Part shown: positions 10,308 through 33,330 of the stretch, one piece after another
How positions within the stretch are numbered: position 1 is the first letter of the stretch
Layout of the letters: every line of letters begins with the position of its first letter
Source: an uncultured Agathobacter sp.
GTDB taxonomy: Bacteria > Bacillota > Clostridia > Lachnospirales > Lachnospiraceae
Direction: 5' to 3'
DNA: 39,236 bases
Assembly: GCA_934316545.1 (NCBI GenBank)
Contig: CAKRDT010000018.1
Span: forward strand, 1 to 39,236
Made by a program: the position numbers and the translations under genes
Notes under the pieces: generated by a model
Seen by the model: only the letters and a program-made list of their open reading frames with translations
What the model was told of the DNA's origin: nothing
The model's database searches: none

Positions 10308-10321
10308 AAGGTAAGAGCGTT

Positions 10322-12277: not shown

Positions 12278-12286
12278 GGAAAGCAA

Positions 12287-13591
12287 ATGATATATACATT
12301 ATTTGGAATAATTAGTATTTTATTGGTTATTTCAATCGTTATTTATAATAGAGATATGACAGCTCCGGCTTTTTTACTAGTAGGTTCTTTTTGGATTGCA
12401 GGGCTGTGTGCTTGCATGTATGCAAAAGAGTGGGACTTTTACAATTATAAGTTGGTTTTAATTGTTATAACAGGATTAATTAGTTTTATGGCATGTAGTT
12501 GGATTAGCTATGTGTTATACAAAAAGGGAAGAAAGATTTTAAAGAAGAAAATTGAAGGGATTTCTTTGTCTAATGCTAAACTGGCTATCTATTTGGTTTT
12601 TCAAATTGTTCTGTATGTAATTTCTCTTGTGTTAATGATCAGAAGTATTGGTTTACAAAATGGTCTTACAACTTTGATTGGCTCATATTACGAAATGAAT
12701 AAGATGGGAGAGCAAGTATATACTTCGTCATTGGTTAGTATAGGAACAATTTTGAATTTCTCAGGTACATATTATGTTATGTACATTGCGATAAATAATA
12801 TTATTGCAGGAGAAAAGAACAAGAAGCTGTTATATATTAATATTTTGGTTGGCGTATTTGGATCACTGCTTAATGGAACCAAATCAGCGTTCTATATGTT
12901 TGTTATTGGTGCATTTGTTATGAGCGTGGCGCAAATGAGCAAGAAGAATGGTTGGAAAAGAAATATTAACCTCAAATCGGTAATTAGAGCTTGTTCAATT
13001 GTGGCAATTTTGCTTATATCTTTTTCTGTAATTAATGCAGCTCAGGGAAGAACGTTAAATGATGTAAAAGTTGTAGATCTATTGGCAACATATTTAGGTT
13101 CTCCATTAAAAAATTTAGAATTGTATTTAAATGAAAATTATTCTAAAAGTAAATTGTTTGGGGAACAAACATTTTTAAATATTTATTCTGATATTTATGA
13201 GCAAACTGGCAATGGTTTATATAGGATAGATTCTATATATAGATATAGATGGATTAATGGTAACGGATTAGGAAATGTATATACGATTTTTATGCCATTG
13301 TATCACGATTTTGGGCTTCTTGGATCTGTTTGTGTTATGGGAGTGATGGGATTTTTCACTCAACATATATATAATAAACTTAAATATCGAAAAAAAAATC
13401 CAATAGTTGATTTTTATATAATATTCTATTCATATTTAGCTTTTGCAGTTATGTTTTCCTTTTTCTCTAACAAATTTTTTGAATGTATTGTTTCGAAATC
13501 CGCAATATATTTTCTCATTGGATTATGGATGTTTGATTTGTTTTTTTTGCGATTGCATATAAAATCGGGAAAGATAGTTATAAAAAAATAG
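12287..13591 (+). CDS. wzy: Wzy-type repeat-unit polymerase
   Basis: This 434-aa integral membrane protein has about ten to twelve hydrophobic segments and a larger loop near residues 250-340. It lies among the glycosyltransferase and flippase genes, where the polymerase is expected. Wzy proteins join flipped lipid-linked repeat units on the outer membrane face and share little sequence, so the call rests on topology and context. TGAGGAAAG precedes the ATG. It is the only polymerase candidate in the locus. Confidence 0.8.
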   Translation: MIYTLFGIISILLVISIVIYNRDMTAPAFLLVGSFWIAGLCACMYAKEWDFYNYKLVLIVITGLISFMACSWISYVLYKKGRKILKKKIEGISLSNAKLAIYLVFQIVLYVISLVLMIRSIGLQNGLTTLIGSYYEMNKMGEQVYTSSLVSIGTILNFSGTYYVMYIAINNIIAGEKNKKLLYINILVGVFGSLLNGTKSAFYMFVIGAFVMSVAQMSKKNGWKRNINLKSVIRACSIVAILLISFSVINAAQGRTLNDVKVVDLLATYLGSPLKNLELYLNENYSKSKLFGEQTFLNIYSDIYEQTGNGLYRIDSIYRYRWINGNGLGNVYTIFMPLYHDFGLLGSVCVMGVMGFFTQHIYNKLKYRKKNPIVDFYIIFYSYLAFAVMFSFFSNKFFECIVSKSAIYFLIGLWMFDLFFLRLHIKSGKIVIKK

Positions 13592-13607
13592 GTGGAGATA
13601 TGGTGTG

Positions 13608-14558
13608 ATGCGAGAATACTTAGTTAGTATAATTATTCCGATATATAATGCTGAAAGCTATATAAATAAATGTATAGAATCAGTTATGAATCAATCATAT
13701 ACGAAGATTGAAATATTGTTAATTGATGATGGGTCAACGGATGAATCGCCCAAATTATGTGATCATTTTTCTTGTATTGATGATCGAATACAGGTTGTCC
13801 ACACAAGGAATAGTGGCGCTGGGGCCGCAAGAAATGTTGGATTAAATATAGCTAATGGAGAATATATTTGTTTTGTTGATGCTGATGATCAGGTAAATGA
13901 ACGTTACATAGAATATTTAGTATATGCTATTACAGGAAACGAATTAGGCATTTGTGGTTTTACAACAGCTATTGATGGTAAATATAGTCAAACGTTGGTG
14001 CCTGATATTGAAAAAATGACTAAGAATGAAACAATCAAGTGTATGCTTAATCCAAATGAAGCAATAGTTAATTGTTATGGATATTTGTGGAATAAAATAT
14101 TTAAAAAGAGAATAATAGAGGAGAATCATTTAAGCTTTGATCATAAATATTTTATGTGGGAAGATATGTGTTTTTGTTGTAAATATGTTTTGTGTATAGA
14201 AAATGTAGGTTATGTTAATGCTGATTTATATTATTATAATGATAAAAATAAGAATAGTATTAGCCATAATCTTACAACTGAAACAATGGAATTGTGGAAT
14301 GAAGCTTCAATAGAAATCGAACAAATGTTGATTGACAAAGGGTTATATGACGAGGTTGGGTACAAGTCAATAATTGCTGACTTGTATATGAAAACTTTGA
14401 TTGTAAATACTCATTACAACATTCAAACAAGGGGAGAAATTATTACCTTTTTGGATAATAATAGAGCTTTGCTCAGAAAAAAGTATAAAATATATTATAA
14501 AATGTGTAGAACGTGTCCAATAATCTGGCGGGTATTTGGTCGTTGTGTTAGTGTATAA
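13608..14558 (+). CDS. Family 2 glycosyltransferase
   Basis: The roughly 316-aa protein begins VSIIIPIYNAESYINKCIES and continues with LIDDGSTDESPKLC, GAGAARNVGL and the metal-binding DADD at residues 91-94. This is a GT-A fold like the enzyme at 9246 but not a close copy. GGTGGAG lies ten bases before the ATG at 13608. A GTG one codon upstream (13605) has better spacing and may be used instead. It should add a further sugar to the repeat unit. Confidence 0.88.
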   Translation: MREYLVSIIIPIYNAESYINKCIESVMNQSYTKIEILLIDDGSTDESPKLCDHFSCIDDRIQVVHTRNSGAGAARNVGLNIANGEYICFVDADDQVNERYIEYLVYAITGNELGICGFTTAIDGKYSQTLVPDIEKMTKNETIKCMLNPNEAIVNCYGYLWNKIFKKRIIEENHLSFDHKYFMWEDMCFCCKYVLCIENVGYVNADLYYYNDKNKNSISHNLTTETMELWNEASIEIEQMLIDKGLYDEVGYKSIIADLYMKTLIVNTHYNIQTRGEIITFLDNNRALLRKKYKIYYKMCRTCPIIWRVFGRCVSV

Positions 14559-14560
14559 AA

Positions 14561-15715
14561 ATGGAAACGGACATTAAGATGGATAATAAAAAAAATATTT
14601 TACTAGTTACACTATTTGATGATAACAATATTGGAAATCGATTGCAAAATTATGCTTTACAACATACTTTAGAGTTACATAATGTAAATGTGTCTATTAT
14701 AGATAATGGGTACACGAACTATCCGGAGATTAAAGACAAAATCAAAATTATTATTAAGCAATGCTTGGGAATAATTGGAATAGAAAAGTATAGATATAGT
14801 TTTCAACGTTTTCTCTCAGAGAAAATGAAAAGAGTAGCAAATAAAGAATTTGACAGAAAAAATATACATAACATTATAAATCTTAGTAATACACAAATAT
14901 TTAATTCGGATTGGTCGGTTTTTGATATAGCGATTGCAGGAAGCGATCAGATTTGGCATAGATGGGGGAATGATAAGCTGGAACTTCCGTTTTATTACTT
15001 GCAATTTATGCCAAAGACAAAAAGAGCTGCTTATGCAGCAAGCTTTGGATTTGAAAATTTTCCAGAGCAAGATTTGGAGCAGCACAAGAAGGGACTACAG
15101 GAGATGGAATATATTTCCTGTAGAGAACTATCTGGATGCAAATTGGTAGAGGAAGTGGTTGGAAGAGATGTTCCTCGTGTTTTGGATCCAACGTTGTTAT
15201 TGAGTGTTGCTGATTGGAGAAAAATAGAGGGACAAGCACCAGAATATGCAAGAACGCAGAAGAATTATGCGTTTGTTTACTTCTTGGGTGAACAGACGGA
15301 GGAATATAAGCAGTACATTTGTGATGTTATGCAGCATCAAGAAATAGATAAGATTATTGATTTTTCAAATTATATGGATAAGAATATTAGTGTGTGTGGA
15401 CCGGCGGGATTTTTGAGTTTAATTGATCATGCTGAGTGGATATTTACGGATTCTTTTCATTGCACAGTATTTTCAGTCTTATTTGATAAGAAGTTTACTG
15501 CATTTCGAAGGGAACAAGAAGGCTTCGAAAAAATGTTTGGAAGAATCGAGGATTTGCTGGCAAGTACCAATAAACTGGAATGTATTTATGGCGGGACAAC
15601 AAGAGTGGCAACAAATGATTTTGATAAATTGTATTCGGATTCTATGCATTACATTTCCAAGGTGATGGGATGTGCAGATGGCGAAGATGAGAGTGATCAT
15701 ATAGTTGGTGATTGA
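14561..15715 (+). CDS. Polysaccharide pyruvyl transferase family protein
   Basis: Family members move pyruvate from phosphoenolpyruvate onto a sugar as a ketal, giving the polymer negative charge. The 384-aa protein has the typical opening NILLVTLFDDNNIGNRLQNY, the AIAGSDQIWHRW motif, VLDPTLLLS, and the late TDSFHCTVFSVLF segment. An in-frame ATG at 14579 has GGAAACGGA ahead of it and gives the usual short N-terminus before NKKNILLV, so the true start may be there. It follows the glycosyltransferase by two bases. Confidence 0.88.
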   Translation: METDIKMDNKKNILLVTLFDDNNIGNRLQNYALQHTLELHNVNVSIIDNGYTNYPEIKDKIKIIIKQCLGIIGIEKYRYSFQRFLSEKMKRVANKEFDRKNIHNIINLSNTQIFNSDWSVFDIAIAGSDQIWHRWGNDKLELPFYYLQFMPKTKRAAYAASFGFENFPEQDLEQHKKGLQEMEYISCRELSGCKLVEEVVGRDVPRVLDPTLLLSVADWRKIEGQAPEYARTQKNYAFVYFLGEQTEEYKQYICDVMQHQEIDKIIDFSNYMDKNISVCGPAGFLSLIDHAEWIFTDSFHCTVFSVLFDKKFTAFRREQEGFEKMFGRIEDLLASTNKLECIYGGTTRVATNDFDKLYSDSMHYISKVMGCADGEDESDHIVGD

Positions 15716-15742
15716 AAGAATAAGTATTAGAGGACTATTACT

Positions 15743-17272
15743 GTGGCAAAGATAGAAAGAACCAAAAATGCAACTAGAAATATAATATTTGGAATTATAC
15801 TTAAGGCATATCAGGTTCTTGTGCCCTTTTTTATGCGTACGGCAATGATCTATCTTATGGGGGTTCAGTATCTTGGATTGAATTCTCTATTTACGTCAAT
15901 TCTTCAAGTGCTGAATCTGGCTGAATTGGGCGTAGGATCAGCAATGATCTACAGTATGTACAAACCAATTGCAGAAGATGATAATGCGACGGTTTGTGCA
16001 TTGATGAAATTGTATAGAACCTATTATAGGATAATTGGTTTAGTTATTGCTATAATAGGATGCATATTGACACCGTTCATTCCGAAACTTATTTCCGGAG
16101 ATGTACCGGAAGATATTAATATATATATTCTTTATCTGTTGAACTTGGGCGCGACAGTATTATCATATTGGCTCTTTGCATATAAAAATAGCATTCTTCA
16201 AGCGCATCAGAGAACAGACATTGTAAGTAAGGTGACGTTGTTAGCTAGTACGGTACAATATGCAGTACAGTTACTTGTTTTATGGCTTTTTAAAGATTTT
16301 TATTTATACGTTCTTGTGATGCTTGTTACACAAGTCTTTATGAATATCGGCACGGCGATTGCGGCAGACAAGTTGTATCCGGAACTCAAGCCATTGGGGC
16401 AACTTCCTCAAAACGAGGTGAATCAGATTAACCAAAGAATAAGAGACTTATTCACTGCAAAATTTGGCAGTGTTATTGTTGGGTCTGTAGATACAATAGT
16501 TATTTCTTCTTTTTTGGGATTAACCACATTAGCAGTATATCAAAATTACTATTTTATAATGAATGCTATATGTGGATTCATTGCAGTAATCTTTTCGTCT
16601 ATAATTGCAGGAATGGGCAATAGTTTAGTTGTTGAGACGAAAGAGAAGAATTATAATGATTTTGAAACATTTACTTTTATCATTTGTTTTATCTTGTGTA
16701 TTTGCTGCTCTTGTTTTGCAGGACTATATCAGCCATTTATGGAATTATGGGTAGGGACAGCATTAATGCTTGATTACAGTTATGTAATTTTATTCTGTGT
16801 ATTGTTTTATTGCCTTGAACTTGCAATGGTGTGGGCAACTGTTAAAGATGCAGCCGGAATGTGGCATTCTGACCGATTCAGACCTTTGATTGGAGCAATT
16901 GCAAATTTAGTGATGAACCTTCTACTTGTTCGTTTTATAGGACTTTACGGAATTATTCTTTCAACAGTTCTTAGTTATATTCTGATTTCTATGCCATGGT
17001 TGATACATAATTTGTTTAAATTTTTATATAAAAGATCTTTGATGGGGTATTTAAAGAAGTTGATGCTTTATATGCTAATTGCCATATTTTCAACAGCAAT
17101 AAATGTTTTTATATGTGGCAATTTGGCTATTGGCGGCGGATGCGGTTTGTTAATTAAGGGTGTAGTAAGTCTTGTGATTCCACTCATAACACAATGTTGT
17201 TTTTATTGGAAAAAGAAGGAATTTAACAAGTCTGTAATCATAGTTAAAAGAATATTGAAACGAGGTCTGTAA
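15743..17272 (+). CDS. wzx: Wzx-type lipid-linked oligosaccharide flippase
   Basis: This 509-aa multi-spanning protein has about 12 to 14 helices. It opens with RNIIFGIILKAYQVLVPFFM and GVQYLGLNSLFTSILQVL, as in MATE/MOP-superfamily polysaccharide flippases. It would carry the undecaprenyl-linked repeat unit to the outer face for Wzy. Translation starts at GTG, with AGAGG nine bases upstream. The aldo/keto reductase gene follows after three bases. Confidence 0.9.
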   Translation: MAKIERTKNATRNIIFGIILKAYQVLVPFFMRTAMIYLMGVQYLGLNSLFTSILQVLNLAELGVGSAMIYSMYKPIAEDDNATVCALMKLYRTYYRIIGLVIAIIGCILTPFIPKLISGDVPEDINIYILYLLNLGATVLSYWLFAYKNSILQAHQRTDIVSKVTLLASTVQYAVQLLVLWLFKDFYLYVLVMLVTQVFMNIGTAIAADKLYPELKPLGQLPQNEVNQINQRIRDLFTAKFGSVIVGSVDTIVISSFLGLTTLAVYQNYYFIMNAICGFIAVIFSSIIAGMGNSLVVETKEKNYNDFETFTFIICFILCICCSCFAGLYQPFMELWVGTALMLDYSYVILFCVLFYCLELAMVWATVKDAAGMWHSDRFRPLIGAIANLVMNLLLVRFIGLYGIILSTVLSYILISMPWLIHNLFKFLYKRSLMGYLKKLMLYMLIAIFSTAINVFICGNLAIGGGCGLLIKGVVSLVIPLITQCCFYWKKKEFNKSVIIVKRILKRGL

Positions 17273-17275
17273 TAT

Positions 17276-18193
17276 ATGGAATATAGAACGTTATGTAATG
17301 GATATAAAATCCCTTGTATCTGTTACGGAACAGATATCGTAGATTATAAAGTGTCAAGTATAGAAAAATTAAAACAGCAGATGAAGATTGTGGTTAAATC
17401 TGCCTTAAGAAGAGATACGAGAAAAATGCAACGAGATAAGGGAATTATTAATTGCTTGGCACATTCGTTAGAAAATAAATGTAACTTTTTTGACACATCT
17501 AGAGCATATGGGGAGTCTGAAAGAATGCTTGGTGATCTGTTAAAAGGAAGAGATAGAGAAAGCTATTATATATGCACTAAACTTGATAATACGGCTCAAC
17601 TTAACAACGTGTCTGCCAGAGATGTGTTGGAAGAAAGCATGAAACGTTTGGGGGTTGATTATGTTGATGTGTATTTGTTGCATTGGCCTGTTGAAGACAG
17701 GTATTTAGATTATTGGAAACAATTAGAACAACTATATAAAGAGGGTATAGTAAAATCAATTGGTGTAAGTAATTGCAAAATACACCATTTAGAGGAAATT
17801 AAGAAAATCGCAGAAATAATGCCTATGATCAATGAGGTAGAACTGCATCCGTTACTCTCGGAGATAGAACTTAGACGCTATTGCGAAAAAAATAATATAC
17901 AGATTATGGCATACACGAGTACAGCTCGTTTAGATTTTAGGCTAAGGGCAAGTCATAGAATGGAGCAGGTGTGTCAAGAGACGGGAAAAAGCCTTTCACA
18001 GATTATATTAAGATGGCATATTCAAAATGGAATTATTCCTATTTTCAACACAAGTACAATTACGCATTTTAAGGATAATGTAAATGTTTTTGATTTTGAA
18101 TTAAGCGATGATCAAATGAGGTTGATTGACAGCATGAACATTAATGCGCGAACGAGGTACGATTCTGATAATTGTGAATGGGACAGGTTGTAA
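17276..18193 (+). CDS. Aldo/keto reductase in the polysaccharide locus
   Basis: The 305-aa protein has the complete catalytic tetrad of the superfamily: D73 and Y78 (FFDTSRAYG), K102 (ICTKLDN) and H136 (LLHWPVE). Further hallmarks are SIGVSNCKIHHLEEI and the C-terminal NADPH-binding region ending in the FNTSTITHFKDN stretch. Its place between the flippase and the FrhB-like fusion suggests it reduces a sugar or alcohol used in the repeat unit, which is inference. Residues 24-60 hold an unusual lysine-rich insertion before the first catalytic aspartate. Confidence 0.88.
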   Translation: MEYRTLCNGYKIPCICYGTDIVDYKVSSIEKLKQQMKIVVKSALRRDTRKMQRDKGIINCLAHSLENKCNFFDTSRAYGESERMLGDLLKGRDRESYYICTKLDNTAQLNNVSARDVLEESMKRLGVDYVDVYLLHWPVEDRYLDYWKQLEQLYKEGIVKSIGVSNCKIHHLEEIKKIAEIMPMINEVELHPLLSEIELRRYCEKNNIQIMAYTSTARLDFRLRASHRMEQVCQETGKSLSQIILRWHIQNGIIPIFNTSTITHFKDNVNVFDFELSDDQMRLIDSMNINARTRYDSDNCEWDRL

Positions 18194-18258
18194 TTGGTGA
18201 AACCACTTATAAATTTTATTAGATTGTAGAAAACGTAAAATGGTTTGGGAGATTAGAT

Positions 18259-20091
18259 GTGATAGATCGTATTGAAAAAGAAAAATGCACTGGATGCAAA
18301 ATGTGTGCGGATATATGTCCTAAGGGGGCTATATCTTTTGAAGCAGACGAACAGGGATTTTGGTATCCCAAGGTAAATAATTTGTGCGTGAATTGTGGTT
18401 TATGCATAGCAAAGTGTCCATCCTTAAATGAGGTACATGAGGAAGGAAGAAAACCGATTGTTTATGCAGCATGGAGCAAAGATGATGATACAAGAATAAC
18501 AAGCACATCTGGTGGAGTGTTTTGGGAAATTGCAAACAAATTTTTGGCTATGGGTGGTGTTGTGGCTGGTTGTCGTTATTGTGAGGACTGGAAATCAGCT
18601 GAACATATTATAGCAAGAAATCAAAGTGAATTATTAGAGATTAAGGGATCTAAATATTTTCAATCGGATACTGCAACTATCTATAAAAGTGTAAAAACAG
18701 AAATTGATAATGGACATAAGGTCTTGTTTTGTGGAACCCCATGTCAAATTGCAGCAGTTAAGTCATACTTAGGTGAAAACTCGGAAAATTTGTATTGCAT
18801 GGACTTTATATGCAGAAGTATAAATTCTCCCAAAGCTTTTAGAGCATATATTGATGAACTTGAGAATGAGTATAAGTCAGATGTAAGGGAAGTTCACCTC
18901 AAAAATAAAAAGAACGGCTGGCAGAGTTTAGCTTCTCAAGTCCGATTTGCAAATGGAAAAGAATCTATAAAGGATAAAAATGAAGATTGGTGGGTAAAAG
19001 GTTTTATTTACAATGATTTGTATACAAGAGAATCTTGCTATCATTGTCAATATAAAGTTTTGCCACGTTTGAATGCGGATATAACGATCGGGGATTTTTG
19101 GGGAATTAAAGGGCAAAATGAAACGGATATGTTCAAGGGGATATCTGTCATGTTGTTAAATACAGAGAAAGGAAAAGAACTATTTGAGGAATGTAAGGAA
19201 CTATTTGATTTTAAGCCACATAGTTTAGAGGAGGTTCTGCCAGGAAATCCTGCATTATTAAGAAATCCCGTAAGAACAAATAAACAAGATAAATTTTTCT
19301 TATTACTTAAACAGCATCCATTTAGCTATTGTGTTAGAGAATGCATAAAAATTTCAATGATAACCAGATGCAAAAACAAATTTAAAGGTTTAATTAAAAA
19401 AATGCGTAAAGGTATTTGGCTCCTAATAAAATCGGATATAGATATTAGAAAATATGTTTATTACAATTATTTTTGTAGAAATGTTGTTCGAAAAACTGAT
19501 GCGAAAATAATGCCGCATAAAAATGCAATTTTAGATTTACAGGGCAATTCAAGAATTATTCTTTCTGGGTCAAAAAATTTAAATATTGGTATAAATAAGT
19601 TGAAGGGATCAAAGGCAGAAACACATATTCGTCTAAATGATGGCGCAATTTGGAATTGTAATAATGGAGCGGATTTGTTTTACAATACAGTATTGGAAAT
19701 CAAACCGGAGGCAATGTTTAATTCGGGTTATTTTTCTGCAAATGGCGGTAGCGTTATTATTCTTCATAAGAATATTAATTTTGGAGAAGATGTAATGATT
19801 GGAAGAAACGTTATTATTTATGATAGTGATTTTCATACAGTTTATAATTCAAAAGGGATGGCATGCAATTTCCCAGAAACGGTAACAATTGAAGATCATG
19901 TATGGTTAACGTCTAATATTATTGTGCAGAAAGGGGTTACTATTGGAAGAGATAGCCTGATTACTTCATACACAACTGTAAATCGAGATGTTCCCGCACA
20001 TTCTATTTTTGGAGGAAAAAGTGTAGGTGAGGTAATCAAAGATCAGGTGGAATGGAGTAGAGAAGTGTGCCCGATGGGAGATACATTATAG
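18259..20091 (+). CDS. Ferredoxin/FrhB-like protein fused to a hexapeptide acyltransferase
   Basis: The 610-aa protein has two 4Fe-4S motifs (C10, C13, C16, C20 and C43, C46, C49, C53). An F420-hydrogenase beta-subunit-like region follows to about residue 370, with VLFCGTPCQIAAVKSYLG and ITIGDFWGIKG. From about residue 430 it becomes a left-handed beta-helix acyltransferase with GEDVMIGRNVIIYDSDFH, TIEDHVWLTSNIIVQKGVTI and the GGKSVGEV end. FrhB-like proteins are known from polysaccharide loci, often beside pyruvyl transferases. The C-terminal domain should transfer an acetyl group. The GTG start has GGGAG seven bases upstream. The fusion is continuous with no frameshift. Confidence 0.85.
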   Translation: MIDRIEKEKCTGCKMCADICPKGAISFEADEQGFWYPKVNNLCVNCGLCIAKCPSLNEVHEEGRKPIVYAAWSKDDDTRITSTSGGVFWEIANKFLAMGGVVAGCRYCEDWKSAEHIIARNQSELLEIKGSKYFQSDTATIYKSVKTEIDNGHKVLFCGTPCQIAAVKSYLGENSENLYCMDFICRSINSPKAFRAYIDELENEYKSDVREVHLKNKKNGWQSLASQVRFANGKESIKDKNEDWWVKGFIYNDLYTRESCYHCQYKVLPRLNADITIGDFWGIKGQNETDMFKGISVMLLNTEKGKELFEECKELFDFKPHSLEEVLPGNPALLRNPVRTNKQDKFFLLLKQHPFSYCVRECIKISMITRCKNKFKGLIKKMRKGIWLLIKSDIDIRKYVYYNYFCRNVVRKTDAKIMPHKNAILDLQGNSRIILSGSKNLNIGINKLKGSKAETHIRLNDGAIWNCNNGADLFYNTVLEIKPEAMFNSGYFSANGGSVIILHKNINFGEDVMIGRNVIIYDSDFHTVYNSKGMACNFPETVTIEDHVWLTSNIIVQKGVTIGRDSLITSYTTVNRDVPAHSIFGGKSVGEVIKDQVEWSREVCPMGDTL

Positions 20092-20222
20092 CTTATGAAA
20101 ATGATGGTAAATCTTGAGTTGGACTTATTACGATTGGAGACAAAAGATAAGATATTTGTGGTTGGGATTTTCTTTTTAAGAAAATAATAGCTACTTAGAA
20201 CGGAAAGGAGCAAGGGGAGATT

Positions 20223-21503
20223 GTGAATATTAACACAAGACAACGTAAAGTGTTCATTACATTGCTGTTGAGCGCTTTAGAAGTATGGTTTTTGGTTCGA
20301 TATAATTTATTGTCCTTGTTCCAAAAGTTTATTTATCAAGTGTTTAAAACTGAAACAAATATTCTCGATGCAATTGCTCTTGTGACACCAACGGGTTTTT
20401 TATTTCTAATAAATTGGAATTTTATAACGCCATGGGCAGAAAAAATATTTGAATCAATTCAAAGTAAGATTGGAAATTTTCGATTAATAGATAGTCAATA
20501 CAAAATAATAGTTCGAAAACTGAATAATTGGCTGATAAATATGCGATGCCATTGGGGAGTAGTAGACAAAGCAACGGAACCTCAAAATGCGAATACATGT
20601 GAGGGACTTATTGCCTTATATGAATCGGGAATGCAAGAGAATGAAGTGTTTCATTCGTCATTAAGTAAAATAGATGCGGAAGTCGGAAAAATGGGATTGC
20701 GTAGCAAATCATTGGGGAAAGAAACAATTGTTTGTACTTCAATGATTCTATATTTGATAGGACAGCTAAGAAATAAAGTTGATTATGAGATTGAGTTTGG
20801 AAAGTATGAACTCTTGACTAGAAAATTGTGGAAGGTAAAATGCAGAGCTGGTTGGGGCGTTTTCATGGAAAAACCGAGTTTTGAAGACTGCAGCAATGTA
20901 AACAGTATTTGGGCATTAAGAGCGCTGAATCAATATTCAATACGATATACTCTTGAATTTAAAAAGTTTATGTTAGAATTCTACGAACATTCCAAATTTG
21001 GGAAATTTGGCTTTACGCGACAAGATAGTAGTAGACTTACACCTACAGCTATGGCTATTGTCCTTTATTATGAATTAGATCAAGATTTAAGGGAAAAAAT
21101 ACAGAAGATATATAATGTTGAAGAGGCAATAAAATATGTAATTGAACAGTTTGTGGACAAAGGCATCGATTATGAGGTGGAAACACTCTTGGGTATAAAA
21201 AAGGCAAATAAAGGGGTTGCAAAGGCACCATGGAATCATATTTTAATTGGATATGCAATAGAAGCATTGACATTGGCATACAGGCATAGAAATATAAAGA
21301 TTTATCAAATGAATAGGTGCATAAAAAGAGTTAATCTTATTCTGAAAAGTAGTTTGCATAATGAAACGGATGATGAAATGTACTATATTCCAGAAAAAAT
21401 GGAAAAACATAGTTTGGGAAATTATACATATCCCACAGCGTATTTGATTTGGGGCTTAAATTGCTTTATAAAGGAAAGGAGAGATCCTAATGAAACGTTT
21501 TAA
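20223..21503 (+). CDS. Membrane-anchored alpha/alpha-toroid protein of unknown function
   Basis: This 426-aa protein was not recognised as a named family. Two hydrophobic segments (about residues 10-27 and 49-67) precede a helical domain. At least five repeats there recall prenyltransferase/terpene-cyclase toroids: CHWGVVDKATEPQNANTCEG, GWGVFMEKPSFEDCSNVNSI, FGFTRQDSSRLTPTAMAI, PWNHILIGYAIEALTLAY and YYIPEKMEKHSLGNYTYPTA. No DxDD or other cyclase acid motif is obvious. The GTG start follows AAAGGAGCAAGGGGAG. Its end overlaps the Nudix-like gene by 14 bases, so the two are surely co-expressed. It lies next to defence-type genes. Confidence 0.65.
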   Translation: MNINTRQRKVFITLLLSALEVWFLVRYNLLSLFQKFIYQVFKTETNILDAIALVTPTGFLFLINWNFITPWAEKIFESIQSKIGNFRLIDSQYKIIVRKLNNWLINMRCHWGVVDKATEPQNANTCEGLIALYESGMQENEVFHSSLSKIDAEVGKMGLRSKSLGKETIVCTSMILYLIGQLRNKVDYEIEFGKYELLTRKLWKVKCRAGWGVFMEKPSFEDCSNVNSIWALRALNQYSIRYTLEFKKFMLEFYEHSKFGKFGFTRQDSSRLTPTAMAIVLYYELDQDLREKIQKIYNVEEAIKYVIEQFVDKGIDYEVETLLGIKKANKGVAKAPWNHILIGYAIEALTLAYRHRNIKIYQMNRCIKRVNLILKSSLHNETDDEMYYIPEKMEKHSLGNYTYPTAYLIWGLNCFIKERRDPNETF

Positions 21504-22422
21504 TGGCGCAGATAAATTAAGATCATTAACTCGAATCGAGTCTATTGAAGAAAGTTTAAAATATAAAGAAGATGTTTTCCTTTTGCCCAAAACGATTCAA
21601 TATAAGTTCTTGGAAGATAATCTATTTGAACTGAAAGGAATATCAGATAAATGGGACAAAAAAAAGATAGATTTGATTCGTGTAATTCAGGTATCAGATG
21701 CATTAAATATTAAATATCAGCGCACGAATGTTCTTACTCCATTGGCATATGCAGAGAGCAGAGAAGATATCTTATGGCATCTAAATACACAAGGCATTTT
21801 TGTGTCAAAAATAGAGCATGACGATATTCTACAATGGATAAAAAATGAGAGCCGAGAAAAAAATTATGGAAGGCATGAATTTGATAGTTTCTGGCTTCCA
21901 TTTTGTGGAGCGGTAGAACAATTGCAGATTGGAGATGTTATTTGTATTTTCAATAGGCGAGTTGCCGGTTGGGATGGATCTGCGAAGAGACCGGTCATTG
22001 AACTTTTGGGGGCGGGAGGCCATTTGCCAGTGATTTTTGATGAAAATCTTAATGATTTTAGGCAGTTGTCTATTGTCGAAAATATGCAAAAAGAAACATT
22101 TGAGGAACTAGGAATTAAATTGAGTAACAGAGACATAGATAGTTTTGGTGGATATACTAATTTTATTACACATGAATTAGTTGCATTAATGGGTGTTAAG
22201 ATTTCAGACATTCTAATTCCTAAGGTGCAGGAATATGCAATGCAGAATTCAGATGGTGATACAAAGGGCATATACTTGGGCTTTTTTGATACTGTAATTG
22301 ATTACTATAGAAGAAATCCGAAACCATTTGCAGGAGGAGTAAAAGCAGCGACTTGTAACTTCCCGAACCAAATACAATTGATGAAAAAAATTAGTACATA
22401 TTTGAAAATCATTTCGGCATAA
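21490..22422 (+). CDS. Divergent Nudix-like hydrolase
   Basis: The 310-aa protein has an uncharacterised N-terminal half (residues 1-145). A Nudix-like core covers about residues 150-240, with GAGGHL at 174-179 and KETFEELGI at 201-209, the counterpart of the REXXEEXG helix. Arginine is replaced by lysine, and there are extra residues between the two halves of the box. A conserved-looking FAGGVKAATCNFPNQ follows. Nudix enzymes cleave nucleoside diphosphates linked to another group. AAAGGAGAG lies before the ATG, inside the preceding toroid gene, giving a 14-base overlap and translational coupling. The substrate is unknown. Confidence 0.65.
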   Translation: MKRFNGADKLRSLTRIESIEESLKYKEDVFLLPKTIQYKFLEDNLFELKGISDKWDKKKIDLIRVIQVSDALNIKYQRTNVLTPLAYAESREDILWHLNTQGIFVSKIEHDDILQWIKNESREKNYGRHEFDSFWLPFCGAVEQLQIGDVICIFNRRVAGWDGSAKRPVIELLGAGGHLPVIFDENLNDFRQLSIVENMQKETFEELGIKLSNRDIDSFGGYTNFITHELVALMGVKISDILIPKVQEYAMQNSDGDTKGIYLGFFDTVIDYYRRNPKPFAGGVKAATCNFPNQIQLMKKISTYLKIISA

Positions 22423-22490
22423 GAGTAAAATAATCTGACGGATTATATAATCTCATGTAAGAGATATTTTCACAAAGAAGTGTTATAATA

Positions 22491-22499
22491 ATGATATAC
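22491..22499 (+). promoter_or_regulatory. Extended -10 promoter before the DUF4062 gene
   Basis: TGTTATAAT is a TGnTATAAT element, about 110 bp before the DUF4062 start, inside the 186-bp gap after the Nudix-like gene. No good -35 is present. It suggests that the DUF4062 gene is its own transcription unit. Confidence 0.45.
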
Positions 22500-22608
22500 T
22501 TGTGGTTGAGGATTTTCTTTCACTGTATGAATATAATGATATTTTAATATTATCTAGAGAGATATATCTTTAAATGCGGTCGAATGAACAAGAAGGAGAA
22601 GGATACAT

Positions 22609-23883
22609 ATGAAAAAGTATCAGGTTTTTATTTCATCTACATACGAGGATTTGCAAGAAGAAAGAAAAGCGATAGTAGAAGCTATTCTTATAGCCGGACA
22701 TATTCCAGCAGGTATGGAATTGTTCAGTGGGGCTGGAACATCAATAAAGATAATCAAGAGATGGATAAATGAATCAGATATATATGTCCTTTTATTAGGT
22801 GGTCGGTATGGAAGTATTTATGAAGAAAGTAGCGATGATTTTGATGGTAAAATAAGTTATACAGAATGGGAATACGAATATGCAAAGTCGTTAGGGAAAC
22901 CCATATGTGTAATTGTATTAAGTGAGAAAATGATTTATGGAAATGCACAAAAATATGGAGGCGATAAAATAATTGAAAAAGATAATGTACAAAAATATGA
23001 AAGATTTAAGAATAAAGTGATAGAAGATGGATTTTGTAAGCAAATAGAAAATTTGTCTGAAATATCAGGAATTGTGCAGGCAGATATTAATGCAATTATT
23101 TGTAGCGGAGAGTATAATTTGCTTGGCTGGATAAAGGCTGATCAAACTGCTATTGATATACCAAATGTAAGAAATGATTTGTTGATTGATATTTTTCAAC
23201 AATCAATGGATACATATATATCACGTTATTATAAAGATGTAGATGTTTCAGATTTCTCAAAAATGGTCGGAATTAAAACTCGTCAGGTCGTTAATGCGGA
23301 AGGACTTCTGGATTCCTTTCATAGAATTGTAAGGATTTTTCGACACAACGATACATTGATAAAAGTGGTTATTGCAGATGAATATGTTTATAGATACCTT
23401 GATAGTAAACATCATGCATTTGGTAAGAGATTTCATGCAACGAGACAACAGGCGGAGTCTTATAAGGTTGAAAAATTATTGATAAATCACATTGATTATT
23501 CCGATGATTTTGAACTAAATGTTTCAGAAGATACAAGCAGGGGACAACTGAGTTTCTGTGTAGAGAGCAAAAAGTCTGTTCCATTAGGAAATGATTTTCC
23601 TGTTGATATATATTATGTTAGCAGTTATTTGTGTCAGGTGTCGGAGTTTTTTCAGGCATTTGGATTGCCTTTTCCATGCAAAAATTTTATGGTAGATATT
23701 TATTTGGAGGATGATTTAGAAAAAAAATATTCTATTGTAACTTCCACAAATTCATTGTTTAGTAAAGTGTATTCTGATTCTTTTAAAGCTAATGAAATGA
23801 AGAATTTTATTGGCTGTAGTATCAGATTACCAGAATGGGCATTGGCTAGTGATGGTTATGTCGCAACGTTAAAGGAAAAATAG
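22609..23883 (+). CDS. DUF4062 (TIR-like) protein with uncharacterised C-terminal domain
   Basis: Residues 1-115 are a DUF4062 domain: KYQVFISSTYEDLQEERKAI, AGHIPAGMELF, INESDIYVLLLGGRYGSI and SYTEWEYEYAKSLGKPI. DUF4062 resembles TIR domains and is frequent in prokaryotic defence and conflict genes. Residues 185-424 were not recognised. They are not obviously membrane-bound and read as a mixed alpha/beta sensor-like region. AAGGAGAAGG precedes the ATG. The gene lies between the toroid/Nudix pair and an AbiH gene and is strongly AT-rich. Phage defence is an inference from the domain and neighbours. Confidence 0.8.
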   Translation: MKKYQVFISSTYEDLQEERKAIVEAILIAGHIPAGMELFSGAGTSIKIIKRWINESDIYVLLLGGRYGSIYEESSDDFDGKISYTEWEYEYAKSLGKPICVIVLSEKMIYGNAQKYGGDKIIEKDNVQKYERFKNKVIEDGFCKQIENLSEISGIVQADINAIICSGEYNLLGWIKADQTAIDIPNVRNDLLIDIFQQSMDTYISRYYKDVDVSDFSKMVGIKTRQVVNAEGLLDSFHRIVRIFRHNDTLIKVVIADEYVYRYLDSKHHAFGKRFHATRQQAESYKVEKLLINHIDYSDDFELNVSEDTSRGQLSFCVESKKSVPLGNDFPVDIYYVSSYLCQVSEFFQAFGLPFPCKNFMVDIYLEDDLEKKYSIVTSTNSLFSKVYSDSFKANEMKNFIGCSIRLPEWALASDGYVATLKEK

Positions 23884-24017
23884 TAAATGGAAATGTACCA
23901 TGTAGATATTGTGATTGTTGAACAGGGTTAATTAAAATACAGAGTTGAAATGTGGCGTAGTTATTTTGACATGGTGGTAAGAGAAGAGGAATTTGTGTCG
24001 AAACGAAAGAGGTCTGC

Positions 24018-25082
24018 ATGCAAAAGAACATATTGGTAATTGGAAACGGCTATGACATTGCGCATGGCCTTGAAACGAGATATGACGATTTTATAAATTT
24101 CATCCAACGAGCAGAGGACGATGATAGCTTTATAGAGGATGAAGCCGATCGGGAGTTTATTCACAGATGTGTGAAGGAGAATGGCTTTTTGCAGTTCTTC
24201 CTGGCATATACGAATGAAGTGCCAGGATGGGTTGACTTAGAACGGCTTTTGGCTACGGTCGTGGAATATTTCAGGTTATTCATCTCAAATTATCAGCATT
24301 TTATTGATCAGCATTGCAATATTTCGTGGAATTCGATGGATTTTGATATGGGTAGTAATACGAAGATGATGACAATTCATTGTCTGTATATGTTTGATGC
24401 ACTGTATGATAGAGCTGGCTCGCGTGGGGACAGATACATGAAGCATCTGAACCCGAAGTATTATATACATGAGTTTGGCTTGAATAAACGAGAAGTGTTA
24501 AATATGCTGAAGCAGCAGTTGGATGAAATTATTGCTTTGCTGCGGATGTATTTAGAGGCACATTTGAACGAGCGGAGAGACTGCTTAAAGAAGATTCGGC
24601 AAATTGAAGAGATTGATCCTTCGTATGTGATTTCTTTTAATTATACGGATACATATAAGATTTATGGCATTGATCCGGAAAATGTATTCCATGTTCATGG
24701 AAGCCTGGCGAAGGATAATATGGTGTTGGGATTCAATGATGATAATTCGGAGAATCTTGATTACATTTATTTTAAGAAGTATTTTCAGCGGATACAGAAG
24801 CTGACCGGATATATAGATCCGGATAAGATTCGAGAGAGAAATTCATTAGGAACATATAATTATCCGGTGATTCATTTTTATGGTCATTCGATGGACAAGA
24901 CCGATGAAGATGTTATTCAGAAGCTCAGAACGATGGCTTCCGGATTTGTGATTTATACATATGATCAAAATGATTATGAGCAGAAGGTGATCAATTTGAT
25001 TGATGTGTTTGGGAAGAATGAAGCGATGGAGATGATCGAGACGAAGTTTATTCGATTTCTGCAGTGCGAGAGTGGGACATAG
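24018..25082 (+). CDS. AbiH-family abortive infection protein
   Basis: The 354-aa protein opens NILVIGNGYDIAHGLETRYD and also carries GWVDLERLLATVVEYF, VISFNYTDTYKIYG, VFHVHGSLAKDN and HFYGHSMDKTDEDVI. These are the defining stretches of the AbiH family, named after a lactococcal phage-exclusion gene. The GNG opening resembles a nucleotide-binding loop, but the reaction is not established. AGAGG lies just before the ATG. Its composition is less AT-rich than the DUF4062 gene 134 bp upstream, so the two may have arrived separately. The stop codon lies in the loop of a terminator hairpin. Confidence 0.9.
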   Translation: MQKNILVIGNGYDIAHGLETRYDDFINFIQRAEDDDSFIEDEADREFIHRCVKENGFLQFFLAYTNEVPGWVDLERLLATVVEYFRLFISNYQHFIDQHCNISWNSMDFDMGSNTKMMTIHCLYMFDALYDRAGSRGDRYMKHLNPKYYIHEFGLNKREVLNMLKQQLDEIIALLRMYLEAHLNERRDCLKKIRQIEEIDPSYVISFNYTDTYKIYGIDPENVFHVHGSLAKDNMVLGFNDDNSENLDYIYFKKYFQRIQKLTGYIDPDKIRERNSLGTYNYPVIHFYGHSMDKTDEDVIQKLRTMASGFVIYTYDQNDYEQKVINLIDVFGKNEAMEMIETKFIRFLQCESGT

Positions 25083-25094
25083 TCCCACTTTTCT
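25071..25094 (+). terminator. Terminator overlapping the abiH stop codon
   Basis: AGTGGGAC (25071-25078) and GTCCCACT (25082-25089) form a perfect 8-bp stem, followed by T-rich sequence. The TAG stop lies across the loop. A later AGTGGG near 25098 can pair with the same CCCACT, so two mutually exclusive stems are possible. Confidence 0.7.
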
Positions 25095-25251
25095 TGGAGT
25101 GGGGGTAAAAGCTTAGGCTTTGAGTTTGTGAATAAATAGATTTTCAAAAATATGAGTTGCAAAAAGAAATCCGGTATTGTATAGTAATTTCGTTACATGG
25201 CAAATCAATAGCGTATCGCTGAATTTTCCATAGACAATAAAATTGAATACA

Positions 25252-25280
25252 TTGCATAATCACTTCCTTTTTACTATAAT
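25252..25280 (+). promoter_or_regulatory. Promoter of the Rpn nuclease gene
   Basis: TTGCAT (25252-25257), a 17-bp spacer and a perfect TATAAT (25275-25280) lie 17 bp before the TTG start codon. Transcription should start near 25287, giving a very short leader that still includes the GGGAGG ribosome site. Confidence 0.75.
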
Positions 25281-25296
25281 GTAGGGAGGATAACGA

Positions 25297-26235
25297 TTGA
25301 ATTGCAGAAGAAATAAAAGCTGGTTAAAGCTTGTTCACAAGTTCAAGTTTCACAACCGGAAGTATAAGGATCGTTTGTTTCAGAGAGTGTTTCAGGATAA
25401 GCGTGATCTGCTTGATCTATACAACGCGATGAATGGAACGGATCATCAGAATCCGGAGGAACTTGAGATCACAACGCTTGAGGATGTGATCTTTATGTCG
25501 ATGAAGAATGATAAGTCCTTTATTATTTCGTCGACGATGAATCTGTATGAGCACCAGTCCACCGTGAATCCGAATATGCCGATTCGTGGACTGCTCTACT
25601 TTGCGCAGCTTTATGATGAGTACATTAAGCTGCATGAGTTAAACATGTATGGGCACAGGTTTATCAAGCTTCCGATGCCACAGTACATTGTTTTTTACAA
25701 TGGCACGGAAGAGATTCCGGATGATCAGATTCTTTTGCTGTCGGATGCGTTTGAAAGTGATCCGGCGGCGAGAGAGATGGAACCAGCGTTAGAATGTAAG
25801 GCGAGAGTCATTAATGTAAACAGTGGACATAATGCGGAACTGATGAATAAATGCAGACGGCTCATGCATTATTCCTTGTTTATAGCAAGAATCCGGCAGA
25901 ATACGGATGGAGGAATGTCAATGGAGCAGGCGATTGATGAAGCAATCAGTTACTGCATCGAGCATGACATCCTAAGAGACATTCTGCTGAAAAATCGGAG
26001 TGAGGTGCGTCATATGCTTTTAACAGAGTTTGATGAAAAGAAGTTTGCCAAGTCGATGTGGGAAGAAGGTCGTGAATCAGGATTTGAGGAAGGCCGTGAG
26101 ACTGGATATACGGAAGGTAGAGATGATATCTTGAATATCATGGATGAAATCAACAAGGGAAATGACACTCTGGAAAAGCTGACCGCGTTGGGGTATGATG
26201 CAGAAGTGGCAAAGAAGGTACTGAAGAAAAAATAA
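25297..26235 (+). CDS. Rpn-family recombination-promoting nuclease
   Basis: Rpn proteins are PD-(D/E)XK-type DNA endonucleases that promote recombination, and some act in phage defence. The 312-aa protein has DKSFIISSTMNLYEHQST, which holds the conserved acidic and ExQ positions, then NPNMPIRGLLYFAQLYDEY and PQYIVFYNGTEE. The C-terminus carries glycine/charge repeats (EEGRESGFEEGRETGYTEGR) typical of the variable Rpn tail. The TTG start was chosen because GGGAGG lies before it and a promoter fits exactly. An internal ATG at 26014 has GAGG eight bases ahead and could give a separate tail protein. Confidence 0.85.
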   Translation: MNCRRNKSWLKLVHKFKFHNRKYKDRLFQRVFQDKRDLLDLYNAMNGTDHQNPEELEITTLEDVIFMSMKNDKSFIISSTMNLYEHQSTVNPNMPIRGLLYFAQLYDEYIKLHELNMYGHRFIKLPMPQYIVFYNGTEEIPDDQILLLSDAFESDPAAREMEPALECKARVINVNSGHNAELMNKCRRLMHYSLFIARIRQNTDGGMSMEQAIDEAISYCIEHDILRDILLKNRSEVRHMLLTEFDEKKFAKSMWEEGRESGFEEGRETGYTEGRDDILNIMDEINKGNDTLEKLTALGYDAEVAKKVLKKK

Positions 26236-26291
26236 AACAGTCTGGAAGTGTTTTATGCAATGTAGACGGAAAATTTTAAGAGGGTTTGCTG

Positions 26292-26317
26292 AAAAAGAGG
26301 TTATAAGACCTCTTTTT
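26292..26317 (+). terminator. Terminator after the Rpn gene
   Basis: AAAAAGAGGT and ACCTCTTTTT form a 10-bp stem around TATAAG, with the T-run as part of the right arm, about 55 bp beyond the Rpn stop. Confidence 0.75.
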
Positions 26318-26335
26318 CTTACATGTGGTAAAGAA

Positions 26336-26615
26336 AATGGCACAGACAAAGATGATTTATGGAATCCTTATGTTTGGTGGGAGATGAGCGCAGAGACTAT
26401 GTGTAATATTTTCTTGAAGGAACAAGGATGTGTGATATATGATTAGTTTGGACAAGATTAACGAATTCAGAGACGAAGTGAATTCAGATAAGTTCGTTCT
26501 TTCAAAGTACAAAATGGTTAATGGAAAGAATCAATGGGGATGTATATGTTCAGCCATGGATTGAATAACCGTTGCAATTGAATATATAATGCATTTTGAA
26601 TATTACGGTGCGGCG
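26336..26615 (+). pseudogene. Gene remnants cut by the insertion sequence
   Basis: A reading frame without a start ends at 26446 with the protein-like tail WNPYVWWEMSAETMCNIFLK. A second one starts at ATG 26439 (MISLDKINEFRDEVNSDKFV) with AAGGATG ahead of it and stops at 26562-26564 after ICSAMD. Reading through that TGA continues ITVAIEYIMHFEYY into the insertion sequence end. The TGA may therefore be a mutated TGG, and the IS then removed the rest. No function was recognised for either piece. The 26236-26706 stretch holds nothing else except the Rpn terminator and the IS promoter. Confidence 0.5.
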
Positions 26616-26644
26616 GGTTCTTCCTCAATTATCCGTTTTAGCTC

Positions 26645-26673
26645 TTGGGATTATACGAAAACTATAGTATAAT
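26645..26673 (+). promoter_or_regulatory. Transposase promoter with overlapping inverted repeat
   Basis: TTGGGA (26645-26650), a 17-bp spacer and TATAAT (26668-26673) lie about 34 bp before the transposase start. The inverted repeat ATTATAC/GTATAAT (26650-26656 and 26667-26673) overlaps the -10 and could serve for autoregulation. Confidence 0.6.
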
Positions 26674-26706
26674 CAAGGTATCAATTGCAATAACGGAGAC
26701 ATAAGG

Positions 26707-27534
26707 ATGGCGACAGTAGATACCTCATTTTTAAATGCATTTTACCCGGAAGAAAGTCTGAAAATATCAAATGTTATCCAAGATAAAGATAAAATTTTGA
26801 TACGAATAAAACCTATTACAGCATGTTGCACCTGTCCTAAGTGTGGACAAACAACAAATAATTATCATGGTACATATATGCGTAAGGTACAAGACTTGCC
26901 GATCCTTGGAAAGAACGTTCAGTTGGAGATAACCGCTCATGAGTATAATTGTATGAATAAAGAATGTAATACAACATCCATATCAGAGACTTTTGATGGT
27001 TTTCTGAATGCATATAGCAGGATGACAGAACGTTGTGCAGATTTTGTATGTACATTGGCATTGGAAACAAGTTGTGAAGGATGTGCTCGCATATGTAAAA
27101 CACTTGGAATTAAGACTAGTGGTGATACGGTTATTCGACTTCTTTTGAAAAGGTATGAACCATTACCGAATCCGGAAACTGGAGATGTGATTGGCGTTGA
27201 CGATTTTGCCTATAAAAAGAGAAATACATATGGAACAATCATTGTAAATGAGAAGACACATGAACCTATTACCTTATTAGATGGTCGGGATGGAGAAACC
27301 TTAAGGGAATGGCTCAAAAATAATAAACAAGTAAAAGTCGTTACTCGTGATAGAGCAAGTGCTTATGCAAGAGTGATTACGGAGGAATTGCCAGATGCGA
27401 TGCAGGTTGCGGATAGGTTTCATCTACACCAAAATCTTTTAGAGGCAATTAAAAAAGCTTTGAATAAAGAAATACCCGCCACCATTACTATTCCGCATGC
27501 GGATGAAGATTCATGTAAAAAAAATCGCAGTTGA
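26707..27534 (+). CDS. ISL3-type transposase, N-terminal part
   Basis: The 275-aa reading starts with the usual ISL3 N-terminus. It carries a zinc-binding region (CTCPKCG, then CMNKEC) followed by the first part of the DDE catalytic domain, with D165 in VIGVDDFAYKK and D215 in VVTRDRASAY. It stops shortly after an A8 run at 27517-27524. Moving forward one base at the run joins it in frame to the downstream ORF, giving one protein of roughly 545 aa. AACGGAG precedes the ATG. It is either a disrupted gene, a sequencing slip or an expression frameshift. Confidence 0.85.
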   Translation: MATVDTSFLNAFYPEESLKISNVIQDKDKILIRIKPITACCTCPKCGQTTNNYHGTYMRKVQDLPILGKNVQLEITAHEYNCMNKECNTTSISETFDGFLNAYSRMTERCADFVCTLALETSCEGCARICKTLGIKTSGDTVIRLLLKRYEPLPNPETGDVIGVDDFAYKKRNTYGTIIVNEKTHEPITLLDGRDGETLREWLKNNKQVKVVTRDRASAYARVITEELPDAMQVADRFHLHQNLLEAIKKALNKEIPATITIPHADEDSCKKNRS

Positions 27535-28351
27535 TGTGGATAACTCTCCAAATTATTCAGAAAAACGTTATCAAATGATATGTCAGATACAGGGATTTTT
27601 AAAGGAAGGCTGCAGTTATCGAGAAATCGTAAGAAGAATGGGTGTTGGAAGAAATACAATTGCTAAATATCGCAATGGAAATCCGATGGAATTAAGTATG
27701 TATGGAGTGAGACAAAGCAAATTAGATCCATATTATGATTTTATAATACAGTGTTTAAAATCAGGTTGGAGCAAAAGCAAGACAGTTAAAGCAGTTTATG
27801 AGAAAGGATATACTGGTTCCCAAAGCAATGCCTTTGATTATCTTGTAAAAATAGAAGAAAAAATAAATGAACAGTTTGCTCCTCAGCCATATGTTAGAAC
27901 GATGACAGAGGCTTTAAAATATGGAACAGGTAGTTGCGGAAAAGATAAGGATTATATAACACGTGAGGGCATATTTCGATATATGTGGATGAACAAAGGA
28001 CTAACTGAAGAACATAAATGTCATATCTTGAATCAGTATCCACACATATATGAATTGCACAGCTGCATCAAAGAATTCAGAAAAATATTTGAAGAAAAGA
28101 AAGTACCGTTATTATATCTGTTTATTGAGAAATACAGTAAGAGCGAAATAAAAGCTTTACAGAGTTTTGCAAATGGATTAAGGCGTGATATAGATGCTGT
28201 TGAAAATGCAATAGCATATGATTACAGCAACGGTTTTGTAGAAGGAACAAACAGCCGATTAAAAATGATAAAGCGAACAATGTATGGAAGGGGCAGTAAG
28301 CGGTTGCTTGAGGCAAAATTGCGATATCCAAAGGCAACTGCTTACGGATAA
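27497..28351 (+). CDS. ISL3-type transposase, C-terminal part
   Basis: This second frame supplies the helix-turn-helix insertion (YREIVRRMGVGRNTIAKYRN) and the end of the catalytic domain. That end carries the third acidic residue in FVEGTNSRLKMIKRTMYGR. The ATG given has no ribosome binding site, so it is most likely only a continuation of the upstream ORF. The true coding join is near 27518. The stop codon sits within the right inverted repeat. Confidence 0.8.
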   Translation: MRMKIHVKKIAVDVDNSPNYSEKRYQMICQIQGFLKEGCSYREIVRRMGVGRNTIAKYRNGNPMELSMYGVRQSKLDPYYDFIIQCLKSGWSKSKTVKAVYEKGYTGSQSNAFDYLVKIEEKINEQFAPQPYVRTMTEALKYGTGSCGKDKDYITREGIFRYMWMNKGLTEEHKCHILNQYPHIYELHSCIKEFRKIFEEKKVPLLYLFIEKYSKSEIKALQSFANGLRRDIDAVENAIAYDYSNGFVEGTNSRLKMIKRTMYGRGSKRLLEAKLRYPKATAYG

Positions 28352-31071: not shown

Positions 31072-31099
31072 ATAGTATGTTACCTTTCCTTTAGTATAT

Positions 31100-31128
31100 A
31101 TCATAAGGATTTATTTTCACACCCCCAA
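31100..31128 (-). promoter_or_regulatory. Promoter of the Rpn gene
   Basis: On the minus strand TTGGGG (31123-31128), a 17-bp spacer and TATGAT (31100-31105) lie about 30 bp before the chosen start. The match is moderate. Confidence 0.5.
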
Positions 31129-33309: not shown

Positions 33310-33330
33310 TTGTGTTTGGAGAGAGTGTAT

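Follow-up and report, generated by a model that had tools for sequence, protein, structure and literature searches.

The window analysed here is a stretch of 39,236 nucleotides from an uncultured Agathobacter sp. (Lachnospiraceae; assembly GCA_934316545.1, contig CAKRDT010000018.1, positions 1-39,236, forward strand), in which two adjacent genes, A and B, encode a protein with two predicted membrane helices followed by an alpha/alpha toroid, and a protein with a Nudix fold, respectively. From comparative sequence analysis we consider it likely, with good confidence, that the pair constitutes a two-component immune system of the abortive-infection type with modular effectors. A preliminary description of this DNA had reported that the two genes overlap by 14 bases and lie directly before genes for DUF4062 and AbiH proteins, which is indeed the arrangement found (Table 1). 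Both A and B are preceded by a purine-rich ribosome-binding site, and the location of the B site inside A is consistent with translational coupling; promoter- or terminator-like sites were no more frequent than in shuffled sequences.

Table 1. Position and basis of assignment of the features described in the window.
Feature	Position	Strand	Basis
Gene A, two-transmembrane-helix toroid protein, 426 amino acids, GTG start	20223..21503	+	open reading frame
Gene A, N-terminal effector part (putative): two predicted membrane helices, about residues 9-25 and 47-63	20223..20480	+	hydropathy, domain start
Gene A, alpha/alpha toroid, six hairpins, residues ~87-426	20481..21500	+	fold, conserved motifs
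Gene B, ribosome-binding site, within gene A	21470..21486	+	direct sequence reading
Gene B, Nudix-fold protein, 310 amino acids, ATG start, 14-base overlap with gene A	21490..22422	+	open reading frame, fold
Gene B, residues 176-208: invariant G-G-H, then Nudix box K-E-x-x-E-E-L-G	22015..22113	+	alignment
DUF4062 protein, directly after the pair; not seen with the pair in other loci	22609..23883	+	profile match
AbiH protein; not seen with the pair in other loci	24018..25082	+	profile match

Searches with A gave 38 and then 24 matches, 55 of them distinct. The alignment used below (set A6, 54 rows) was obtained by dropping P0004, P0005, P0006 and P0031 and adding the A proteins of three genome loci, L002, L003 and L004 (that of L003 being identical to P0135), with the A of the window standing for P0001. 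The preliminary view of A as two N-terminal membrane helices plus at least five toroid repeats without an acid motif holds, the repeats amounting to six hairpins whose inner helices start with the conserved motifs QNANTCE, TVVCTS, aNT, TaM, PWnH and TfPT. Class II terpene cyclases carry a DxDD acid motif, and N-acylglucosamine and cellobiose epimerases a catalytic His pair. A has the toroid fold of the former but not their motif: DxDD is missing from the A of the window, is present anywhere in the protein in only two of the 54 rows, and no Asp reaches 85% conservation. Its highly conserved residues include a single His and no Asp, so that the epimerase His pair is absent as well. The six-hairpin toroid is shared with AprG, squalene-hopene cyclase, drimenyl diphosphate synthase and cellobiose 2-epimerase, from all of which A differs by the lack of DxDD, by its one conserved His and by the immune-type effector fusions of its relatives. 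A cannot be recognised as any known polysaccharide enzyme, though cellobiose 2-epimerases and other sugar enzymes have its fold. Profile searches gave no match above cut-off for either protein in four libraries: neither A nor B hits a family of Pfam or of PADLOC-DB 2.0.0 even with E relaxed to 1, each hits a single NCBIfam model far under its cut-off, and in PHROGs nothing was found for A and one weak match (0.044) for B.

The part of A that precedes the toroid is exchanged among its relatives. A short hydrophobic N-terminus is found in 36 of the 54 rows, with at least two hydrophobic segments in 34 of these and one segment in P0011 and P0013. A TIR domain takes its place in seven rows and a TIR-like domain in five (three of them scanned, matching TIR_2 under the cut-off, and two assigned by similarity), SEFIR in two, and HD-CE (1.6e-36) and SMEK (7.3e-19) in one each; the N-terminus of the L004 toroid protein has no Pfam match and is read by us as a PD-(D/E)XK-like nuclease, and one row lacks an N-terminal part. 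P0036 through its TIR part and P0028 through its SMEK part, and through these effector domains only, match PADLOC models of the TIR and restriction endonuclease (REase) domains associated with short Argonautes, and of TIR-SAVED; the P0026 and L004 forms gave no PADLOC match at 0.001. In a tree of the toroids (52 rows, P0030 and P0038 being too short for inclusion) the effector labels need six changes, the minimum for seven states, and the TIR label needs three, of which at least two are forced by starred branches. The exchangeable N-terminus of A (two membrane helices, TIR, SEFIR, HD-CE or SMEK), rather than B, is the likely effector; the Nudix enzyme, which had been proposed for that role, would be the constant partner. 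The toroid, in turn, is likely the sensor.

In the four proteins dropped from the alignment, toroid pieces 71-73% identical to gene A either break off abruptly or continue into B or a glycosyltransferase. These proteins are likely rearranged or mis-assembled, whether as chimaeras of the assembly or through real rearrangement of a copy from a capsule locus. The mosaic P0005 was not taken as proof of a natural A-B fusion.

The search with B returned 95 rows, or 94 without the mosaic P0005, and 88 of the 94 were aligned (set A3; P0046, P0120, P0121, P0127, P0131 and P0132, some of them not short, were omitted). The Nudix box has the form GX5EX7REUXEEXGU, within which REUXEE holds the box glutamates. 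B had been described as a divergent Nudix protein with an altered box. Its fold is that of the superfamily and the full 23-residue box is indeed incomplete, the first half (G x5 E) missing and the Arg replaced by Lys, but the box glutamates are kept: E202, E205 and E206 are invariant in all 88 rows, as is the G-G-H motif, and K201 occurs in 87. Even a divergent B copy, that of locus L006, keeps E-x-x-E-E. Because the three glutamates are invariant, B is probably an active enzyme. Like isopentenyl diphosphate (IPP) isomerase I, YfcD (2fkb), NUDT16 and 3dup, B combines the Nudix fold with an E-x-x-E-E metal site; unlike them it has Lys for Arg, a replaced first box half and a first segment of 60 residues of its own. 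None of the 33 members of set A2, made up of 32 B proteins plus the mosaic P0005, hits any Nudix family of Pfam even with E relaxed to 5.

Concerning the association of the two genes, contigs from the genomes of 84,980 species were scanned for B with three short peptide patterns. Six loci (L001-L006) were found, a lower bound given that only these patterns were used, and the A-B family looks rare. One of the six is labelled as Tenericutes and five as Clostridia or as genera which we take to be clostridial. Homologues of A and B do co-occur: besides the window, A stands directly upstream of B in three of the six loci, with an overlap of 4 bases in L002 if B starts at TTG (a later ATG would leave a 17-base gap), a 12-base gap in L003 and abutting genes in L004. 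Among the metagenome proteins, 13 of the 38 A matches have a longest contig exactly equal in size to that of a B match, compared with about 0.3 chance matches per offset as estimated from six pairs off by 1-10 bases; the same equality is seen for 5 of 17 further A matches. B thus stands beside the two-helix, the nuclease-like and, as judged from equal contig size, the TIR forms of A. Distances between toroids and between B proteins were compared over 20 pairs, 4 seen adjacent and 16 inferred from equal contig sizes, after dropping P0012 as ambiguous and P0135 as identical to L003. They are strongly correlated (Mantel r 0.927, a value reached in none of 20,000 permutations), also within the 17 two-helix pairs alone (r 0.926), and B is the better conserved of the two, with a mean identity of 0.54 vs 0.43 for the toroid. 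A and B seem to evolve together, as one unit.

In the window, in L002 and in L003, the pair is neighboured by known or candidate defence genes. The L002 pair directly follows a gene for a 1017-residue protein of the SIR2 plus prokaryotic Argonaute (pAgo) type, a short-Argonaute SIR2 fusion with a PADLOC score of 1210, and is followed by genes that look, by eye, recombinase- or integrase-like. In L003 a PDC-S28 helicase and a small membrane protein are encoded upstream, and a resolvase and a TIR-transmembrane protein downstream; a 207-residue membrane protein upstream of the toroid gene (L003 3639-4262), without Pfam match, resembles SLATT by eye. Upstream of the window pair extends a capsule/exopolysaccharide locus (LytR-CpsA-Psr, Wzz, sugar transferase, glycosyltransferases, pyruvyl transferase, and a Polysacc_synt match just under cut-off). 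The guanine-plus-cytosine content is 32-34% in A, B and the DUF4062 gene and 29-34% in the variable capsule genes, compared with 49% in the Wzz group and 47-51% in all but one of six genes or gene groups examined at the conserved window ends. Across window positions 9246-28351, the defence genes and the variable capsule genes range from 29 to 38%, apart from a nuclease-like gene of 43% at 25297, and the flanks are mostly at 47-51%, as though the capsule cassette had moved jointly with the defence genes. Related genomes were surveyed as well: of 391 genomes from the same class as G003 one held B, as did one of 299 from the G001 family and one each among 39 and among 26 genomes from the same genus as a carrier, and the toroid turned up once among 397 genomes and once among 297. 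Since each survey returned the starting genome only, the family is sporadic, a pattern usual for defence genes.

Other features of the window and loci may be recorded here. Two PD-(D/E)XK recombination-promoting nuclease/transposase-like genes (25297-26235 and 30175-31104 of the window; a weak YhgA-like match and PDDEXK_2) enclose an ISL3 transposase split into two open reading frames (26707-27534 and 27497-28351), and adjacent NTP_transf_2 nucleotidyltransferase and NTase_sub_bind genes at 33310-34054 are likely a toxin-antitoxin pair of the MNT-HEPN type. In L005 (10067-12759) a broken B copy is flanked by genes that look, by eye, like uvrB, radC and pyrE on one side and like HAD and caspase-like genes on the other. 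In L006 (3256-7795) B lies near a small protein without Pfam match, read as nucleoside 2-deoxyribosyltransferase-like, and downstream of a 712-residue protein with an HExxH motif.

Several observations weigh against an immune pair built in this way. The effector classes mostly form one clade each, with about one gain per class apart from TIR, so frequent swapping is not demonstrated. The toroid fold doubles as an enzyme fold, and A could be catalytic. The L001 contig ends 57 bases before B, B is broken in L005 (two TAA in frame) and divergent in L006 (33% identity), neither of the latter loci has an A, and the toroid was not found in the whole genomes G001, G005 and G006, including the remainder of the genome that holds L001. 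As a divergent B was found in the L006 genome and a toroid was not, B is able to exist alone, and the L006 protein is possibly a stand-alone branch of the B family. For 37 of the 55 A matches there is no contig of equal size among the listed B matches, the pairing figure being a lower bound, and the HD-CE, SMEK, SEFIR and TIR-like forms of A have no demonstrated neighbouring B. The defence neighbours are a raw count, and among the genes next to the L004 pair, judged by eye only, no defence gene was seen. Finally, no relatives of A or B were found in viral contigs, and tblastn found neither the A and B of the window in plasmids nor B, the only one compared there, in phage records; other forms run against plasmids gave one weak match for P0036, none for P0034 and, for P0026, three records through the HD-CE part only.

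With these points taken into account, the earlier proposal of a sensor/effector pair is supported in part: adjacency, co-diversification, exchanged effectors and defence neighbours in three loci speak for a system of two genes, for a membrane toroid and a Nudix protein, in the vicinity of defence genes, and its assignment of the Nudix protein as effector is what probably has to be given up. On the logic that constant parts sense and regulate and varying parts kill, the toroid and B are assigned to sensing and regulation and the N-terminus to killing. B and the starts of the toroid inner helices are both strongly conserved, which suggests a shared, fixed small ligand rather than a fast-evolving phage protein. 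We infer that the exchanged domain of A would be the killing effector, that the toroid would serve as a small-molecule receptor, with a pocket formed by the conserved polar residues at the inner-helix starts, and that B would be a metal-dependent Nudix enzyme acting on this molecule or its precursor. Infection would shift the level of the molecule, the toroid would change state and the fused effector would be activated; in the window form, the two membrane helices would disrupt the inner membrane. This complete reading, with the toroid as sensor and B as enzyme of its ligand, is held with moderate confidence. As for the direction of control, there are weak indications of a metabolite guard, in which B would clear (or supply) a conserved diphosphate-containing metabolite so that A stays off; given the complete reading, this is somewhat more likely than B making the activating signal.

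The latter arrangement, in which infection stimulates B to cleave a diphosphate compound and the product diffuses to the toroid and fires the effector, is possible, though we lean away from it. It has the architecture of CBASS, Pycsar and Thoeris, a partner enzyme plus a receptor fused to exchangeable effectors, and B co-diversifies with the receptor; Nudix enzymes, however, mostly degrade, and B is conserved beyond the toroid, unlike a direct sensor of phage proteins. Rather unlikely is an antitoxin-like role, in which B, as a slow or catalytically inactive Nudix protein, would regulate A by direct binding and keep it inactive until phage interference with B sets A free. The overlapping genes and the strong co-diversification would suit it, and the top rank in Foldseek with B goes to TIRR, a Nudix fold without hydrolase function, but the invariant box glutamates and G-G-H motif favour catalysis or metal-dependent ligand binding. 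It is improbable that the pair is an isoprenoid module, with a toroid that works as an enzyme or receptor in the manner of terpene cyclases or prenyltransferases and with B acting as an IPP-isomerase-like Nudix protein on prenyl diphosphates: both proteins resemble isoprenoid enzymes, which is suggestive, but the likeness lacks specificity because other toroids and Nudix proteins score almost equally, and B lacks the catalytic Cys that type I IPP isomerase has. A role of the pair outside immunity, in surface polysaccharide or sugar processing as a passenger of the capsule locus, is suggested by that location and by the resemblance of the toroid to sugar epimerases and glycosidases. It is very improbable: next to the L002, L003 and L004 pairs no capsule genes were seen by eye, fusions to TIR, SEFIR, HD-CE and SMEK would serve no purpose in sugar metabolism, and A has a single highly conserved His and no such Asp.

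Returning to the immune pair of sensing toroid and Nudix enzyme, its closest parallels lie among signalling systems. CBASS consists of a CD-NTase and Cap effectors such as TIR-SAVED, REase-SAVED and two-transmembrane-helix proteins, SAVED and CARF being receptors for cyclic nucleotides. Like it, A and B combine a domain, here the putative receptor, that carries exchangeable TIR, nuclease or membrane effectors with a separate conserved partner enzyme; unlike in CBASS, no CD-NTase or SAVED was found, and an alpha/alpha toroid takes the place of the receptor and a Nudix protein that of the enzyme. The cyclase or polymerase partner of CBASS, Pycsar and Panoptes (CD-NTase, PycC and mCpol) is likewise replaced by the Nudix fold of B. 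The short-Argonaute systems SPARTA and SPARSA have related TIR and REase effector domains, as seen in the PADLOC matches given above, but their sensor is a pAgo with its partner instead of a toroid with a Nudix protein. Panoptes (optSE) is described as a two-gene operon in which a membrane-bound receptor and effector is paired with an enzyme that controls the ligand of this receptor (PMC12657218), an organisation resembling that proposed for A and B, from which it differs in that B is a Nudix protein. Nudix is also named, in passages of PMC7159879, as an effector-type domain of vWA-associated conflict systems that may act on ADP-ribose or NAD; these passages provide a conflict setting for Nudix proteins but name no toroid-domain partner. 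By analogy, ADP-ribose or NAD is another possible substrate class for B. Nor is a toroid-domain system named in the passages found in PMC7159879, PMC8195603, PMC12419801 and PMC9503650, and a toroid-Nudix immune pair was not found among the matches listed for the open-access literature.

Within the scope of these literature and profile searches, the pair looks undescribed. Enzyme-plus-receptor immunity with exchanged effectors exists, so that the working principle is already known and only the core pair is not. To our knowledge, such immunity with exchangeable effectors has so far been built on nucleotide-signal enzymes and SAVED, CARF, STING or SLOG receptors. We put forward, as a tentative proposal, that the toroid may be a new receptor class of immunity, that B may control its diphosphate-containing ligand, not a cyclic nucleotide and conceivably a prenyl diphosphate, and that together they may represent an undescribed type of signalling with at least five effectors (membrane helices, TIR, SEFIR, HD-CE and SMEK). 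Two short genes, clear candidate catalytic residues and a natural series of exchanged effectors make the system directly testable. If the reading is true, bacterial immunity would gain, with the toroid and Nudix core, a further receptor fold and a further class of enzyme, and possibly a ligand that has not been looked for.
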